This document shows, in pieces, positions 25,584 to 56,027 of a DNA stretch of 64,000 bases; positions within the stretch are counted from its first letter, which is position 1; every line of letters starts with the position of its first letter. The notes beneath the pieces were generated by a model. That model was not told where the DNA came from. It saw only the letters and a program-made list of their open reading frames with translations, and searched no databases. The DNA is from Desulfomicrobium escambiense DSM 10707. Lineage in GTDB: Bacteria > Desulfobacterota > Desulfovibrionia > Desulfovibrionales > Desulfomicrobiaceae. Made by a program: the position numbers and the translations under genes. Where the stretch lies: the NCBI RefSeq assembly GCF_000428825.1, contig NZ_AUAR01000005.1, positions 62,001 through 126,000 of the forward strand. The letters run 5' to 3'.

Positions 25584-27191
25584 ATGGTCGATACACTACA
25601 TACAGCTGGTGTGCAGCGCGTACGCCCTTCTCTTCCAGATCCCATTTTTTACATGTGGCTTACCCCCTTGAGTGGAGATTCGCCGTGCGGTGAGGATATC
25701 GGCTTCTCCGACGAGTTCGAGTCGCTCAGGGCGGAAGTGGAGAAAGGGATGTCAGTGCACGGGAGGGAGAGAACGGACTGGCCCCTTGTCCTGCGCGTGG
25801 CCACCCAGATTCTCGGCGGACGCAGCAAGGATCTGTGGGTATTGTGCTACGGCGTCATGGCGGCGCAGGAGGCCCAGGGGATCGTGTGTTGCACGGCCGC
25901 CCTTTCAGCGCTTGCATCTCTTCTTGAGTCATATTGGAGCGAGCTGCATCCCGGAATTTCCCGTGTTCAGCGACGAGTTGCTCCGGTTAAATGGCTCGCG
26001 GCACGCCTTGAGTCCAAATTTGCGGCCGAGGTGAAGGCCGAGGAGAAAGGGGCGGTCGTCATCCTGAAAAACGAAGTGGCCCGGTTGCAAGCCATCCTCA
26101 ACGACAGGTTCGGTGCCACGGCGCCTTCCTTTGACGGTCTGTCGCGGCTGCTGGGCGATTATGAACGCGAAGGTGCCGGCAACAGCCCTTCCCGGCCGCA
26201 CCGTGCCGAGATCGCTCCGCCGGTTTTACCCCCGCCCCCAGACACGTCACTGCCAGACGACGATTTTCTCACCGCCATCGACGGCCATGGCCGCGTGCCG
26301 GCCGCAGTGCTGCCGCGTCTCCTCAGATCTGCTCAGGACCAGTGCCGGCAGCTGGCCGCGCATTTTTCCTCGTTCGACATCTTGGACTGGAGGGTGGTTC
26401 TGCTGCACCGCGCGGCTCTATGGTGCACGGTCGATCAACTTCCCCAGGCCGATGGCGCCGGTGTGACACAGTTGCGTCCCGTACCGCCGGAAAGGGCGCA
26501 GTCGTATGCTGCGGCGGTGGAAGCCAGACGATTTCTGGAGGTCCTGCCTCGGCTGGAACGGTCCGCCAGCAAGGCGCCTTTTTGGCTGGATGGGCACCAT
26601 CTTGTCGCCCGTTGTCTCGAAGGGCTCGACGCCTTCGGGTCCCTGGCCATTCTGCGGGCCGTGCTCGCCCAGTTCCTGCGCCGTTTCCCAGAGTTGGTCC
26701 GCTGCAAGTTTCTGGACGGCACTCCCTTTGCCTCGCCGCGAACTGCGCAGTGGCTCGACGCCATCGAATTGCCGCCATCCGGTCAAGCCTCTCCGCGCCT
26801 AACCATACGTTCGGGAGAGGCCGTCCGTGAGCAGGAATTGCTGGATGAGAGCCTGGCCATCCGGGCGGAGAGGGGCTTCCCGGCCGGCCTGTCCCATCTG
26901 GAGAGAGTGCCTGCCGGACGCAGTCGCGCAGCCGTGCGGCAAGGGCTTCTGCTGGCGCGATACTGCATCGCAGCAGGCAACAAGAAGGCGGCCGTGCGGC
27001 TCTTGCAGTCTCTCTACGAACAACTGGAAAAATGGGAGCTGTTGGACTGGGAGCCCGAACTCAGCGCCAACATAATCTCTCTGCTGCTTTCCTTGCAGCC
27101 CAAGGACAGGGGTAACGGGGCTGAGACGATGCTCAGCCGTTTGCACTGGCTGCATCTCGGAACGGCGGTGGGCAGTTTCAAAGAAGTGTAA
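25584..27191 (+). CDS. tssA: T6SS protein TssA
   Basis: A 535-residue TssA (ImpA/VasJ), the cap protein that primes baseplate and sheath-tube assembly. The ImpA_N domain starts LTPLSGDSPCGEDIGFSDEF, followed by a proline-rich linker (PPVLPPPPDTSLPDD) and a long C-terminal helical domain (LLLARYCIAAGNKKAAVRLLQSLYEQLEKW). ATG 25584 was taken; it has only a weak ribosome site. A GTG at 25524 would add a hydrophobic AT-rich stretch unlike the family, and ATG 25653 begins at the conserved core. It is first gene of the rightward operon. Confidence 0.88.
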   Translation: MVDTLHTAGVQRVRPSLPDPIFYMWLTPLSGDSPCGEDIGFSDEFESLRAEVEKGMSVHGRERTDWPLVLRVATQILGGRSKDLWVLCYGVMAAQEAQGIVCCTAALSALASLLESYWSELHPGISRVQRRVAPVKWLAARLESKFAAEVKAEEKGAVVILKNEVARLQAILNDRFGATAPSFDGLSRLLGDYEREGAGNSPSRPHRAEIAPPVLPPPPDTSLPDDDFLTAIDGHGRVPAAVLPRLLRSAQDQCRQLAAHFSSFDILDWRVVLLHRAALWCTVDQLPQADGAGVTQLRPVPPERAQSYAAAVEARRFLEVLPRLERSASKAPFWLDGHHLVARCLEGLDAFGSLAILRAVLAQFLRRFPELVRCKFLDGTPFASPRTAQWLDAIELPPSGQASPRLTIRSGEAVREQELLDESLAIRAERGFPAGLSHLERVPAGRSRAAVRQGLLLARYCIAAGNKKAAVRLLQSLYEQLEKWELLDWEPELSANIISLLLSLQPKDRGNGAETMLSRLHWLHLGTAVGSFKEV

Positions 27192-52382: not shown

Positions 52383-53234
52383 TTATCCTTTGGTGGTGAA
52401 AACCCTGGTCCAGGCCAGGGTCAGGGCGATGGAATAGAGGGCGGCGACGATGCCCAGGGCCACGTCGTACATGGCCGGGGCGGCCAGAGCCAGCCGGATG
52501 AAGAGGGTCGAGAGGGCGTAGCCCGAATTGCGGAACACAGCGTGGAACGAGGGCCGAAAGCACTGCGAGATGAGCACCACCAGGATGTCGGTGAAGATCA
52601 GCAGCGTATAGAAGACGGGAAAGAAGTCGATGTGCGGCAGACCCGCGAACTTGTTGTAGAGATTGTTCAGGCCCAGGGTGACGAAGGTGCCCAGGAGCAG
52701 CAAGGCGATGCCCTTCTTGGCCGCCACGAACCGGAACAGGTCGTGGGGCAGGCCCATGTCCTGCTTCTTGGCGGGCTGGATGCGGTAGTAGACGCCCAGC
52801 AGGGCGAAGACCGCCAGGGCCCCGAAGCCGTAGCCCAGGATATGGTAGACTTTGGTCAGTTCTGTCCCGATGGTGATGGGCTCGGCGAAATGGGAGAGTT
52901 CCTTGAAGGCGTCCCGCAGGAGGATGAGGGACAGGATCTCGAACTGCTTGCCCACGGATCTGGAAAAGGAGCACGGCAGGGTGAAGATGAGGCTCACGAC
53001 CTCAAGAATCAGCACCAGAGTGAAGGCCAGGTTCACGGCGTGAAAATGGTTGGTTGGGGTGTGCGCGGCCAGGGCTGCCGGCAGCAGGCCGTTTCTGTTG
53101 AGCTCGATCCCCGCCATGGCGCCCAGGAAGACGACGATGAGCCCCAGGGCGAAGCGGCGGTGCATGCGCTCGTGCTCCCAGAAATGGTGCAGCGGGTCGA
53201 AGATGTAGGTCAGGCGTTCGAATATCGGGTCCAT
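52383..53234 (-). CDS. Multi-pass membrane protein of unknown function
   Basis: A 283-residue inner-membrane protein with about seven TM segments (first near FALGLIVVFLGAMAGIE; others near VNLAFTLVLILEVVSLIF, GFGALAVFALLGVYY, IALLLLGTFVTLGL, FYTLLIFTDILVVLI, and the C-terminal pair). I do not recognise a transporter family. ATG 53234 has AGAGGA 9 bases upstream; the longer form from a TTG at 53255 adds seven residues but no ribosome site. It sits in a leftward run with a flavodoxin-fold reductase upstream and the dioxygenase downstream. Confidence 0.65.
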   Translation of the reverse strand: MDPIFERLTYIFDPLHHFWEHERMHRRFALGLIVVFLGAMAGIELNRNGLLPAALAAHTPTNHFHAVNLAFTLVLILEVVSLIFTLPCSFSRSVGKQFEILSLILLRDAFKELSHFAEPITIGTELTKVYHILGYGFGALAVFALLGVYYRIQPAKKQDMGLPHDLFRFVAAKKGIALLLLGTFVTLGLNNLYNKFAGLPHIDFFPVFYTLLIFTDILVVLISQCFRPSFHAVFRNSGYALSTLFIRLALAAPAMYDVALGIVAALYSIALTLAWTRVFTTKG

Positions 53235-53260
53235 TGGCGTAATCCTCTGGGACAAAAGCG

Positions 53261-53839
53261 TTAGAGATGCCTTGAGACGATGGCCACGACCTCGCTCAGG
53301 TAGGATTTGCGGACCTCCTCCGACACGGATGCCACGCTGCCGAAAAAGGCGTGATGGAGCACCTCGATGCCGCAGAGTTCGAAAATCCCGGTGTCCGTGG
53401 TCATGGCCATGGCCTCGTGCATGCCCCGCGAGTCACAGACGGTGCTGGGCAGCCCCGTGGTGCTGAAGATGAGGGCCTTCCTGCCGCTCAAAAGGCCCGT
53501 CATCATGTTGTCGTGGAGCGCGTAGGCGAAGTCCTGGCAGAAGACCCGGTCGAAATAGCCCTTGAGCATGGCCGGCATGCCCGTCCACCACACCGGGTAC
53601 ACGAAGGTCAGGATGTCGGCCCAGGAGACGAACTCCTGTTCCTGTCGGACGTCCTGGGCCCGCATGTGCGGCGGCGCTTCAAGTTCGACCCTTCCGAGCA
53701 CCGGGTTGAAGCCGATGCCGTAAAGGTCGCGGCGGAGGATGTCATGCCCCATGGCCGAGGAGACCGCCTCCACGGAATCGGCTATGGCCGCGTTGAAACT
53801 CGTGGGGTTCGGGTGGCAGAAGATGATGAGATGGTTCAT
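53261..53839 (-). CDS. NAD(P)H dehydrogenase (quinone)-like flavoprotein
   Basis: A 192-residue flavodoxin-fold (Flavodoxin_2) protein related to KefF/MdaB/NQO1-type reductases. The N terminus LIIFCHPNPTSFNAAIAD is the FMN phosphate loop. YPVWWTGMPAMLKGYFDRVF is the quinone reductase signature, and STTGLPS follows. It reduces quinones or similar acceptors with two electrons, using FMN or FAD. It lies 26 bases upstream of the membrane protein gene on the same strand. Exact substrate is unknown. Confidence 0.85.
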   Translation of the reverse strand: MNHLIIFCHPNPTSFNAAIADSVEAVSSAMGHDILRRDLYGIGFNPVLGRVELEAPPHMRAQDVRQEQEFVSWADILTFVYPVWWTGMPAMLKGYFDRVFCQDFAYALHDNMMTGLLSGRKALIFSTTGLPSTVCDSRGMHEAMAMTTDTGIFELCGIEVLHHAFFGSVASVSEEVRKSYLSEVVAIVSRHL

Positions 53840-53992
53840 GGCGTCCCCTTGTATGCGCTGAGCTTCACGGGATTCTTCCGTGCGTCCCCGGCCGATGCGC
53901 CGGAGAACAGGGAATGGGATTATGATGAACCATACGCCACGTGAAAAATTCTGGAAAGGTTTTTTTGGTTCGCGCGGTGAAGTTGCAGCAAT

Positions 53993-54229
53993 TCAGGGCT
54001 GTTGACAGGAAGTCCGCAGGATTTGGGCAATCCGCTCGTCTTTCGGGATGAGGCCTGTTTCAAGCTTGGAATGGACCAGGCGGTCATCGACGAAGACCTC
54101 AAAGGAGCCTCTGCTTCCTTGGCTCAGGCTCACCGATGCGCCGCACTCGACGCGCAGTCTGTCCGCAAGACCTGCGGCGCGCTTGGCATAGCCAGCTCAC
54201 ACGCCGCAATAGAGAATTCGTACCTGCAT
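53993..54229 (-). CDS. SelW-like selenoprotein (Rdx family), UGA-decoded
   Basis: Reading from ATG 54229 through the TGA at 54197-54199 as selenocysteine gives 78 residues. They begin MQVRILYCGVUAGYAKRAAG, with Sec at position 11 in a CxxU redox motif. The rest reads SLSQGSRGSFEVFVDDRLV followed by HSKLETGLIPKDERI, which is the Rdx/SelW/SelT fold (GxFEVxVDGxLIxSKxxTGxFP). Known Rdx proteins are small thioredoxin-like redox partners, some with Sec. A SECIS-like stem-loop lies just after the TGA. ORF callers miss it because the TGA looks like a stop. It begins 17 bases after the DUF2845 gene, in the same direction. Its precise partner is unknown. Confidence 0.88.
54163..54199 (-). promoter_or_regulatory. 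Bacterial SECIS-like element
   Basis: After the UGA at 54197-54199 there are 24 bases and then the apical loop GGUCU on the 5-bp stem CCGCA/TGCGG (54163-54177). E. coli fdhF uses the same GCAGGUCU-GC type of apex for SelB. The distance of the loop from the UGA is longer than in fdhF but in the range seen in other bacteria. Confidence 0.75.
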
Positions 54230-54246
54230 GACGCACTCCGGGCGTT

Positions 54247-54540
54247 TCAGTTCTGGAAATATTCCGTCTTCCTGAGTTCCCCGCCTTCGAAGGTCAGGAC
54301 GTAGTAGCCCCCGCTCACTTCGTAGGTCATTTCCGTGACGTAGAGCAGGACCTCCTGGCCTGCGCGCCTGACCGTGATCTCGCCCACGCGCTCCTCCCAG
54401 AGAGGGTCGCCGCATTTCTTGCGCACCTTGGCGATGATGGTGCCGGGGGTCATGAGGTCGCCCTGGCAGCGCAGATCTGCGGACCATGACGGGCCGGCCA
54501 GAAATGTCAGGGTCGCCAGAATGAAAAAGGTCTTTCGCAT
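54247..54540 (-). CDS. DUF2845 family secreted protein
   Basis: A 97-residue protein with a Sec signal peptide (cleavage near SWSA, residue 21). The mature part is of DUF2845 type: DLRCQGDLMTPGTIIAKV, KKCGDPLWEE and VLLYVTEMTYEVSGG. Function is unknown; the two mature cysteines probably form a disulfide. ATG 54540 follows GGAG; upstream extensions have no ribosome site. It is divergent from aspA and precedes the selenoprotein by 17 bases, so they may share a transcript. Confidence 0.75.
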   Translation of the reverse strand: MRKTFFILATLTFLAGPSWSADLRCQGDLMTPGTIIAKVRKKCGDPLWEERVGEITVRRAGQEVLLYVTEMTYEVSGGYYVLTFEGGELRKTEYFQN

Positions 54541-54614
54541 CGGGCTGTCTCCGGTTAGGGGGAATTTCAGCGCCACACTAGGACGCAAGACAATGGCGCG
54601 TAAAGGGGGGAGAT

Positions 54615-56027
54615 ATGGAATACCGGATCGAAAAGGATTCCCTCGGCGATAGGAAGGTCCCGGCACACGCCTACTACGGGGTGCAGACCGTGCGGGCCAT
54701 GGAGAATTTCCAGGTCACGGGGATTCACATCTCCCATTATCCGCTGCACATCGAGGCGTTGGCGTGCATTAAGCAGGCCGCGGCTCTGGCCAACCTGGAA
54801 CTGGGCATTTTGGACCCGGTCATCGCCGAGGCCGTCATGGCCGCCTGCCGGGAAGTGCGGGAAGGGAAGTTCAACGACCAGTTCGTGGTCGACGTCATCC
54901 AGGGCGGGGCCGGCACGTCGGTCAACATGAACGCCAACGAGGTCATCGCCAACCGCGCCCTGGAACTCATGGGCCACGACAAGGGGCAGTACGCCTTCTG
55001 CCATCCCAACAACCACGTCAACCTCTCCCAGTCCACCAACGACGTCTACCCGACGTCCCTGCGCATCACGGCCATCTGGAAGATCAGGGAGGTCATGCGC
55101 AGCATGGAGGATCTGGTGGAGGCCCTGGCCGCCAAGGGCGCGGAGTTCGCCGACGTGCTGAAGATGGGCCGCACCCAGCTCCAGGACGCGGTGCCCATGA
55201 CGCTCGGCCAGGAGTTCGCGGCCTGGGCCGTGACCGTGGGCGAGGACATGGAGCGCATCCAGGAATGCCGCAAGCTCCTGATGGAGATCAACATGGGCGC
55301 CACGGCCATCGGCACGGGCATCAACACCGTGCCGGCCTACGCAGCCTTCGTCTGCGAGAAGCTCGCGCACATCACGGGACTGCCCCTGACCAAGTCGCCC
55401 AATCTCGTGGAGGCCACCTCGGACACGGGCGCCTTCGTGCAGCTCTCGGGGGTGTTCAAGCGCGTGGCCGTCAAGCTCTCCAAGATCTGCAACGACCTGC
55501 GCCTGCTGTCCTCGGGCCCCTTCTGCGGCCTGGGCGAGATCAATCTCCCCCCCCGCCAGCCGGGCTCGTCCATCATGCCGGGCAAGGTCAATCCGGTCAT
55601 CCCCGAGATGGTCAACCAGGTCTGCTTCCAGGCCATCGGCAACGACCTGACCGTGACCATGGCCGCCGAGGCCGGCCAGCTTGAACTCAACGTCTTCGAG
55701 CCCATCATCGCCTTCAACCTCTTCCAGACCATGGACATGCTCGTGCGGGCCATGCGCATCCTCAAGGACCGCTGCATCGTCGGCATCACGGCCAACCGCG
55801 AGCGCTGCGCCCAACTGGTGCGGGCCTCGGCCGGCATCGTGACGATCCTCGTGCCCTATCTGGGCTACGACGAAGCCGCGGCCATCGCCAAGGAGGCGGC
55901 CTCGACGGGCAAGGCGGTCTACGACCTGGTGCTGGAAAAGGGGCTCATGACCCAGGAGGAGCTGGAGGACGCCCTCGATCCCATGAAGATGACCCACCCG
56001 CGCATGGTGCGCAGCGGCCGCTTCTAG
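54615..56027 (+). CDS. aspA: Aspartate ammonia-lyase
   Basis: Converts L-aspartate to fumarate and ammonia. The 470-residue enzyme has the fumarase/aspartase signature GSSIMPGKVNPVIPE, the GGAGTSVNMNANEVIANRA block and the FCHPNNHVNLSQSTNDVYPT region. KMGRTQLQDAVPMTLGQE distinguishes aspartase from fumarase C. A GGGGGAG site precedes ATG 54615. The gene ends in a 4-base convergent overlap with lysR. In a sulfate reducer it may feed fumarate respiration or nitrogen metabolism (inference). Confidence 0.94.
   Translation: MEYRIEKDSLGDRKVPAHAYYGVQTVRAMENFQVTGIHISHYPLHIEALACIKQAAALANLELGILDPVIAEAVMAACREVREGKFNDQFVVDVIQGGAGTSVNMNANEVIANRALELMGHDKGQYAFCHPNNHVNLSQSTNDVYPTSLRITAIWKIREVMRSMEDLVEALAAKGAEFADVLKMGRTQLQDAVPMTLGQEFAAWAVTVGEDMERIQECRKLLMEINMGATAIGTGINTVPAYAAFVCEKLAHITGLPLTKSPNLVEATSDTGAFVQLSGVFKRVAVKLSKICNDLRLLSSGPFCGLGEINLPPRQPGSSIMPGKVNPVIPEMVNQVCFQAIGNDLTVTMAAEAGQLELNVFEPIIAFNLFQTMDMLVRAMRILKDRCIVGITANRERCAQLVRASAGIVTILVPYLGYDEAAAIAKEAASTGKAVYDLVLEKGLMTQEELEDALDPMKMTHPRMVRSGRF

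Follow-up and report, generated by a model that had tools for sequence, protein, structure and literature searches.

Genes and features at the locus

The window, that is, the whole stretch of 64,000 nucleotides of Desulfomicrobium escambiense DSM 10707 DNA that was analysed, contains a small SelW-like gene with an in-frame TGA between a DUF2845 gene and a flavodoxin-like gene. The features are as follows.

54615-56027, divergent: a lyase gene, which we take to encode an aspartase or fumarase
54247-54540, minus strand: DUF2845 gene, separated by 17 bases from the SelW start codon downstream of it; its product has a signal-peptide-like start
53993-54229, minus strand: SelW-like (Rdx family) gene, very probably of a selenoprotein, 78 codons plus a TGA stop, CxxU at residues 8-11
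54197-54199, minus strand: in-frame TGA at codon 11, probable selenocysteine (Sec) codon in view of the conserved TGA, its CxxU position and Cys in forms without TGA
54163-54177, minus strand: putative apical hairpin of a bacterial SECIS element (CCGCA, loop GGTCT, TGCGG), supported by covariation and frozen synonymous codons
53993-53995, minus strand: terminating TGA, codon 79
53261-53839, minus strand: Flavodoxin_2 gene, coding for a flavodoxin-like NAD(P)H oxidoreductase and located 153 bases past the end of SelW

Translation of the minus strand from 54229 to 53993 with TGA as Sec gave a protein of 78 residues, MQVRILYCGV-U-AGYAKRAAGLADRL...SCQQP-stop, in which C8-G-V-U11 forms the CxxU motif. 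The initial annotation had placed the gene at this position, exactly to the base, and had described it as escaping standard ORF calling. The mechanical ORF list (minimum 50 aa) indeed breaks the frame: one ORF stops at 54197 in ...YCGV, the remainder is unlisted, and the sole ORF overlapping this remainder (53920-54102) is in a different frame.

The end of the gene differs among relatives. In 9 of 15 aligned SelW sequences (14 from the genus and one from a sister genus) codon 75 is a TGA stop, where the window has TGT and continues for four codons more (Cys-Gln-Gln-Pro) to its TGA. A second Sec at codon 75 was considered and rejected. Since the Pfam match already ends at residue 72 and other members finish near codon 75 with TAA or TAG, the TGA at this codon in the nine relatives is probably an ordinary stop.

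Family membership and fold

The initial annotation had assigned the product to the Rdx/SelW family, an assignment to be checked by a search of the 78-residue translation with Rdx profiles and to be dropped if no Rdx similarity appeared. The similarity is present. With Cys in place of Sec, the window SelW matched the Pfam Rdx model PF10262 (5e-15, 55.9 bits, cut-off 22.6) and the NCBIfam SelT/SelW/SelH model TIGR02174 (1.6e-14, 53.9 bits, cut-off 34.2), both over the curated cut-offs, and it was the only Rdx match in the host genome. The Campylobacter SelW equivalog NF041051 gave 52.6 bits, which is under its cut-off of 88.

An AlphaFold model of SelW built from 3 sequences (pLDDT 84.5, pTM 0.73) has a strand (E2-7) followed by a helix (H14-29), so that the CxxU motif is predicted to follow the first strand of a thioredoxin-like fold. 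Foldseek with this model returned 23 PDB chains at E ≤0.001 from 8 entries, and thioredoxins came after; the top matches were 2p0g, 2obk, 3dex, 2ojl, 2fa8 and mouse SelW (2npb). By their titles, 2p0g and 2fa8 are selenoprotein W-related, 2npb is mouse SelW, 2obk is a putative Se binding protein and 2ljk is MIEN1, and the other three (3dex, 2ojl, 2oka) are titled by protein name only. A sequence profile search recovered the identical set of 8 entries. The solved SelW-related structures (2p0g, 2obk, 3dex, 2ojl, 2oka, 2fa8 and mouse 2npb) are similar to the window SelW in fold (TMq 0.73-0.82 for chains at E ≤0.001), although the identity in the Foldseek alignments is only 23-33%. In 2oka, unlike in the window SelW, the Sec position is occupied by Cys, and presumably this is also the case for the remaining bacterial SelW-related entries.

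Conservation of the TGA and selection downstream of it

Genomes were searched with a profile of 15 SelW sequences (14 genus members and one from the sister genus). SelW was detected in 14 of the 16 genus genomes, and precisely one internal TGA was present in all 14. The profile found no match in the other two, although both have selB, which indicates that SelW can be absent while Sec coding is retained. We also drew a sample of 394 genomes of the phylum, with 90% completeness requested and the window's own genome included. SelW was found in 59 of them (about 1 in 7), 55 with an internal TGA (one of these plus a TAG) and four without TGA. Of the 55 TGA-bearing matches, we read 29 in addition to that of the window, and the other 25 are known from the search table only. 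All the 29 non-own loci encode YCxxU, and in each of the 44 sequences that were read (the 15-sequence set plus the 29 phylum loci) the TGA stands at the U of CxxU. In all four phylum forms without TGA, this position is Cys (CxxC). The homologues read carry either TGA or Cys at the position of codon 11.

In one phylum locus, L047 (G157:C32), an extra in-frame TAG lies 14 codons past the Sec codon. The locus may be a copy in decay, or the TAG may stem from a sequencing error; the locus was kept in the counts.

Downstream of the TGA, dN ranged from 0.04 to 0.23 against a dS of 0.14-0.78, and dN was lower than dS in 8 of 8 genus pairs, which indicates that the region beyond the TGA is under purifying selection as protein. 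SelW nevertheless diverges faster than its neighbours: in L021 and L022 the identity is 51% for SelW, whereas it is 70% for the flavodoxin gene and 89-91% for the lyase gene, and the TGA and the hairpin are kept. A contig scan found SelW 88% and 85% identical to that of the window in two Desulfomicrobium records.

A candidate SECIS hairpin downstream of the UGA

The initial annotation had described a CCGCA/TGCGG hairpin with a GGUCU loop, and this was confirmed at 54177-54163, with 24 bases between the UGA and the first base of the loop. The loop reads AGTCT in 24 of the 44 sequences (14 from the genus, one from the sister genus and 29 phylum loci), GGTCT in nine, AGTTT in five, AGGCT in five and AGGTT in one, so that G stands at loop position 2 in 44 of 44. 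By comparison, therefore, the UGA is followed at a short distance by a hairpin whose small apical loop has a conserved G, as expected of a SECIS element.

The pairing covaries. Among 43 distinct aligned rows, 96.7% of the hairpin cells pair versus 77.3% in shuffles, and 31 cells are changed on both sides in a compensatory manner versus 6.3 in shuffles; none of 500 shuffles reached either value. Controls in which the partner was slid gave at most nine both-side-changed cells; the shuffles ignore relatedness, and the slid controls allow for it but favour structure from one of their own sequences, chiefly on cells paired. The number of hairpin pairs with both-side changes in the 43-row set (three) was not above the shuffles, 222 of 500 of which reached it. 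In the 15-sequence set by itself covariation was weak, with one compensatory pair that was reached by 33 of 500 shuffles; it is the larger set with the phylum sequences that is decisive. The same set showed a constraint on codon choice: at codons 18-22 the same synonymous codon was used in 461 of 489 same-residue pairs (0.94) versus 963 of 2099 (0.46) elsewhere. No other five-codon stretch that had 60 or more pairs reached so high a fraction.

For the RNA of the window itself, energy folding gave ambiguous results on the hairpin. In the minimum free energy (MFE) fold of 86 nt (54130-54215) the hairpin was absent, its 5' arm pairing instead with sequence upstream of the UGA to form a longer stem; the stability of this fold equalled that of shuffles (z -0.01), and forcing the hairpin into it cost 5.6 kcal/mol. 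When six segments were folded, the hairpin appeared in five, including the 15-nt hairpin alone and 54140-54199, which starts at the UGA, and was absent from 54150-54199. When the first 12 nt were omitted and 46 nt were folded, another fold won in the window (mean pair probability of the hairpin 0.06), and at least 4 of the 5 hairpin pairs were in the MFE fold of 31 of the 44 sequences. A ribosome at the UGA would be expected to cover the upstream arm that competes with the hairpin. We consider that the comparative evidence outweighs the energy folding, and the case for the putative SECIS hairpin rests on comparison.

Rfam at the gathering threshold gave zero matches in the whole window. Both strands of the window were also scanned for sites where a 5-pair hairpin with a similar loop lies 11-32 nt past a TGA, in a frame open for 8 codons upstream and 45 downstream. 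There were two such sites, one of them that of SelW. The second, at 26464 (+), has a translation with nothing familiar by eye and is probably due to chance.

The distance from the UGA to the loop varies among the sequences. In 13 of the 14 genus sequences (L014-L025, L027) an extra codon lies directly after the Sec codon, between the UGA and a conserved Tyr, and as a result the loop begins 24 nt past the UGA, whereas it begins at 21 nt in the other 31 sequences (L026, L028, L033-L061). Two Cys forms, L063 and L064, also have an extra residue after the position of codon 11.

Selenocysteine machinery of the host genome

The presence of selA, selB, selC and selD had been named as a check, and the absence of selB or selC as a finding that would contradict the Sec reading. 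All four genes are present in the host genome (3.78 Mb, 38 contigs). A single selB passed the cut-off, scoring 361 bits and covering positions 1-580 of 581; selA scored 621 bits and selD 325 bits, and a tRNA-Sec was found with 86 bits, for which ARAGORN gave the anticodon TCA. A second tRNA-Sec match, barely over the gathering score, is a tRNA-Trp according to ARAGORN.

The host selD (L010, G000:C3:238834-239754) has one in-frame TGA near its start, in the context ...TAAG-U-ASK, and is likely to be a selenoprotein gene itself. The host genome thus probably contains at least one further selenoprotein gene.

Gene neighbourhood

In 12 of the 14 genus genomes with SelW, this gene sits directly between DUF2845 and the flavodoxin gene, and all three share one orientation; the contig of L017 ends within DUF2845. 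DUF2845 is present in 12 of the 16 genus genomes and adjoins SelW in all 12, with two further partial matches in G003. Of the four genomes without a DUF2845 match, two carry SelW at another place and the remaining two lack a SelW match as well. A BLAST search is insensitive at phylum distance, where the window SelW as a query recovered SelW in only 13 of 29 loci, and the search for neighbours was therefore repeated with profiles of the 12 genus neighbours. By neither method was DUF2845 or the flavodoxin gene found at the other two genus loci, in the family relative or at the 29 phylum loci, within flanks of ~1.5 kb on each side (less in L026 and L046).

We considered whether the three genes form one functional redox module. 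The conserved order, the invariable adjacency of SelW to DUF2845 in the genus genomes with DUF2845, the gap of 17 bases between these two genes and the lack of a terminator-like site among the three (the sole one in 53200-54700 lies upstream of DUF2845) are consistent with such a module. However, the genus genomes are closely related, so that the order may be simply inherited, and neither neighbour accompanies SelW at the other loci within the flanks examined. The DUF2845 protein, which has two cysteines, appears from its sequence to be exported, whereas SelW has no signal-peptide-like start and hence appears to be cytosolic. In addition, the stretch from SelW to the flavodoxin gene contains a promoter-like site at 53947-53919 (9 of 12 positions, 0.3 expected), which would permit separate transcription of the flavodoxin gene. 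A common module is thus unlikely. The initial annotation had proposed a small redox unit of SelW and the DUF2845 protein, and this proposal found no support beyond gene order, in view of the two SelW-bearing genus genomes without DUF2845 and the export signal apparent in DUF2845 only. The link between SelW and DUF2845 remains a gene-order lead.

A more specific version is a genus-specific operon of Desulfomicrobium, DUF2845-SelW-flavodoxin-type NAD(P)H oxidoreductase. Its last gene product would reduce SelW, and the distance between the UGA and the SECIS would exceed by one codon that in the other members of the phylum compared. We hold this to be slightly less probable still. If it were true, it would name a reductant for a bacterial SelW.

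Discussion

The initial annotation had interpreted the gene as an Rdx/SelW selenoprotein gene with a UGA read through by means of a SECIS element. The family models, the conservation of the TGA, the selection downstream of it, the covariation of the hairpin and the Sec machinery all support this interpretation, and we conclude with high confidence that the window gene encodes a SelW-like selenoprotein whose codon-11 UGA is read as Sec with the help of the downstream hairpin. When the ribosome arrives at this UGA, SelB with Sec-tRNA(Sec), bound to the hairpin 24 nt downstream, would bring in Sec in place of a release factor, and translation would continue to the TGA at codon 79. The machinery, the UGA and the hairpin are seen in the DNA itself, and from them we infer the actual insertion of Sec. 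The product would be a small thioredoxin-fold protein with a CxxU active site, probably cytosolic. As judged from the family, Sec11 and Cys8 probably cycle between selenol-thiol and selenylsulfide, and the protein most likely serves in thiol or peroxide redox reactions when the anaerobe meets oxygen or sulfur stress.

Two other explanations of the in-frame TGA were considered. Near-cognate readthrough, in which a tRNA such as tRNA-Trp reads the UGA to give Trp or Cys instead of Sec insertion, could draw on the ambiguous energy folding of the window hairpin. It is nevertheless highly improbable, because the residue is Cys and not Trp in all four forms without TGA, the Sec machinery is complete and a covarying hairpin follows the UGA. 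Equally improbable is a pseudogene that arose from an Rdx gene of the Cys type through a premature TGA: a stop codon does interrupt the frame and Cys forms of the family do occur in the phylum, but the single internal TGA, present in all 14 genus carriers and in 55 of the 59 carriers of the phylum sample, speaks strongly against decay, as do its place in CxxU in the sequences read, dN below dS downstream, the covarying hairpin and the full Sec machinery. Both explanations were rejected on the conservation of the TGA, its replacement by Cys and the covariation.

The window SelW adds a member to a long-described family. SelW-like proteins have long been known as bacterial selenoproteins (PMC1088965, PMC1794560) and, with 48 genes, outnumbered every other selenoprotein family in the Sargasso Sea data (PMC1088965). 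The accessible text of these papers by Zhang and Gladyshev's group describes proteins similar to the window SelW in CxxU, in a SECIS just past the UGA and in their occurrence in deltaproteobacteria. A small apical loop with a guanosine is given as common to bacterial SECIS elements (PMC1088965). SelW-like is given for Desulfotalea psychrophila and Geobacter sulfurreducens, and the table entries of two Desulfovibrio species are without SelW (PMC1794560). The loop at 24 nt in 13 of 14 Desulfomicrobium members, as opposed to 21 nt in the other 31 sequences compared, is a point of difference. The four CxxC versus 55 TGA forms in the phylum agree with the few Cys forms of SelW-like described for Sec-using organisms in the part of PMC1794560 consulted.

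The closest parallel in annotation is SelW of Campylobacter jejuni (CJnc60). This protein of 80-81 residues (PMC11955535, PMC4607533) was, as far as the consulted portions of these papers go, unannotated, with translation past the UGA shown by Ribo-seq and proteomics (PMC11955535), and SelW genes are described as wholly missed by annotation (PMC4607533). It is comparable to the window SelW in these respects but belongs to the Epsilonproteobacteria, and the window protein falls under the cut-off of the Campylobacter model. For Desulfomicrobium, the table of deep-Sep (PMC12013277) gives six selenoproteins for D. orale, and its main text, as available, is without SelW. The word Desulfomicrobium is absent from the available text of PMC1794560, and the genus is named once, in a reference, in that of PMC13188914. 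A Desulfomicrobium SelW was not met in the literature searched, where papers mentioning both concern dental plaque, calculus or oral microbiota by the titles listed. The literature search for DUF2845 found no paper.

The present analysis thus provides a well-supported SelW selenoprotein for Desulfomicrobium, a genus without one in the literature searched, as far as its accessible text goes. It leaves the current understanding of selenocysteine coding unchanged and is another case in which ordinary ORF calling breaks a selenoprotein gene. A small, easily overlooked gene in a sulfate-reducing bacterium codes for a selenium-containing redox protein across an in-frame stop that is most likely read as Sec, and its genus-conserved neighbours provide a testable lead on the partners of a bacterial SelW.
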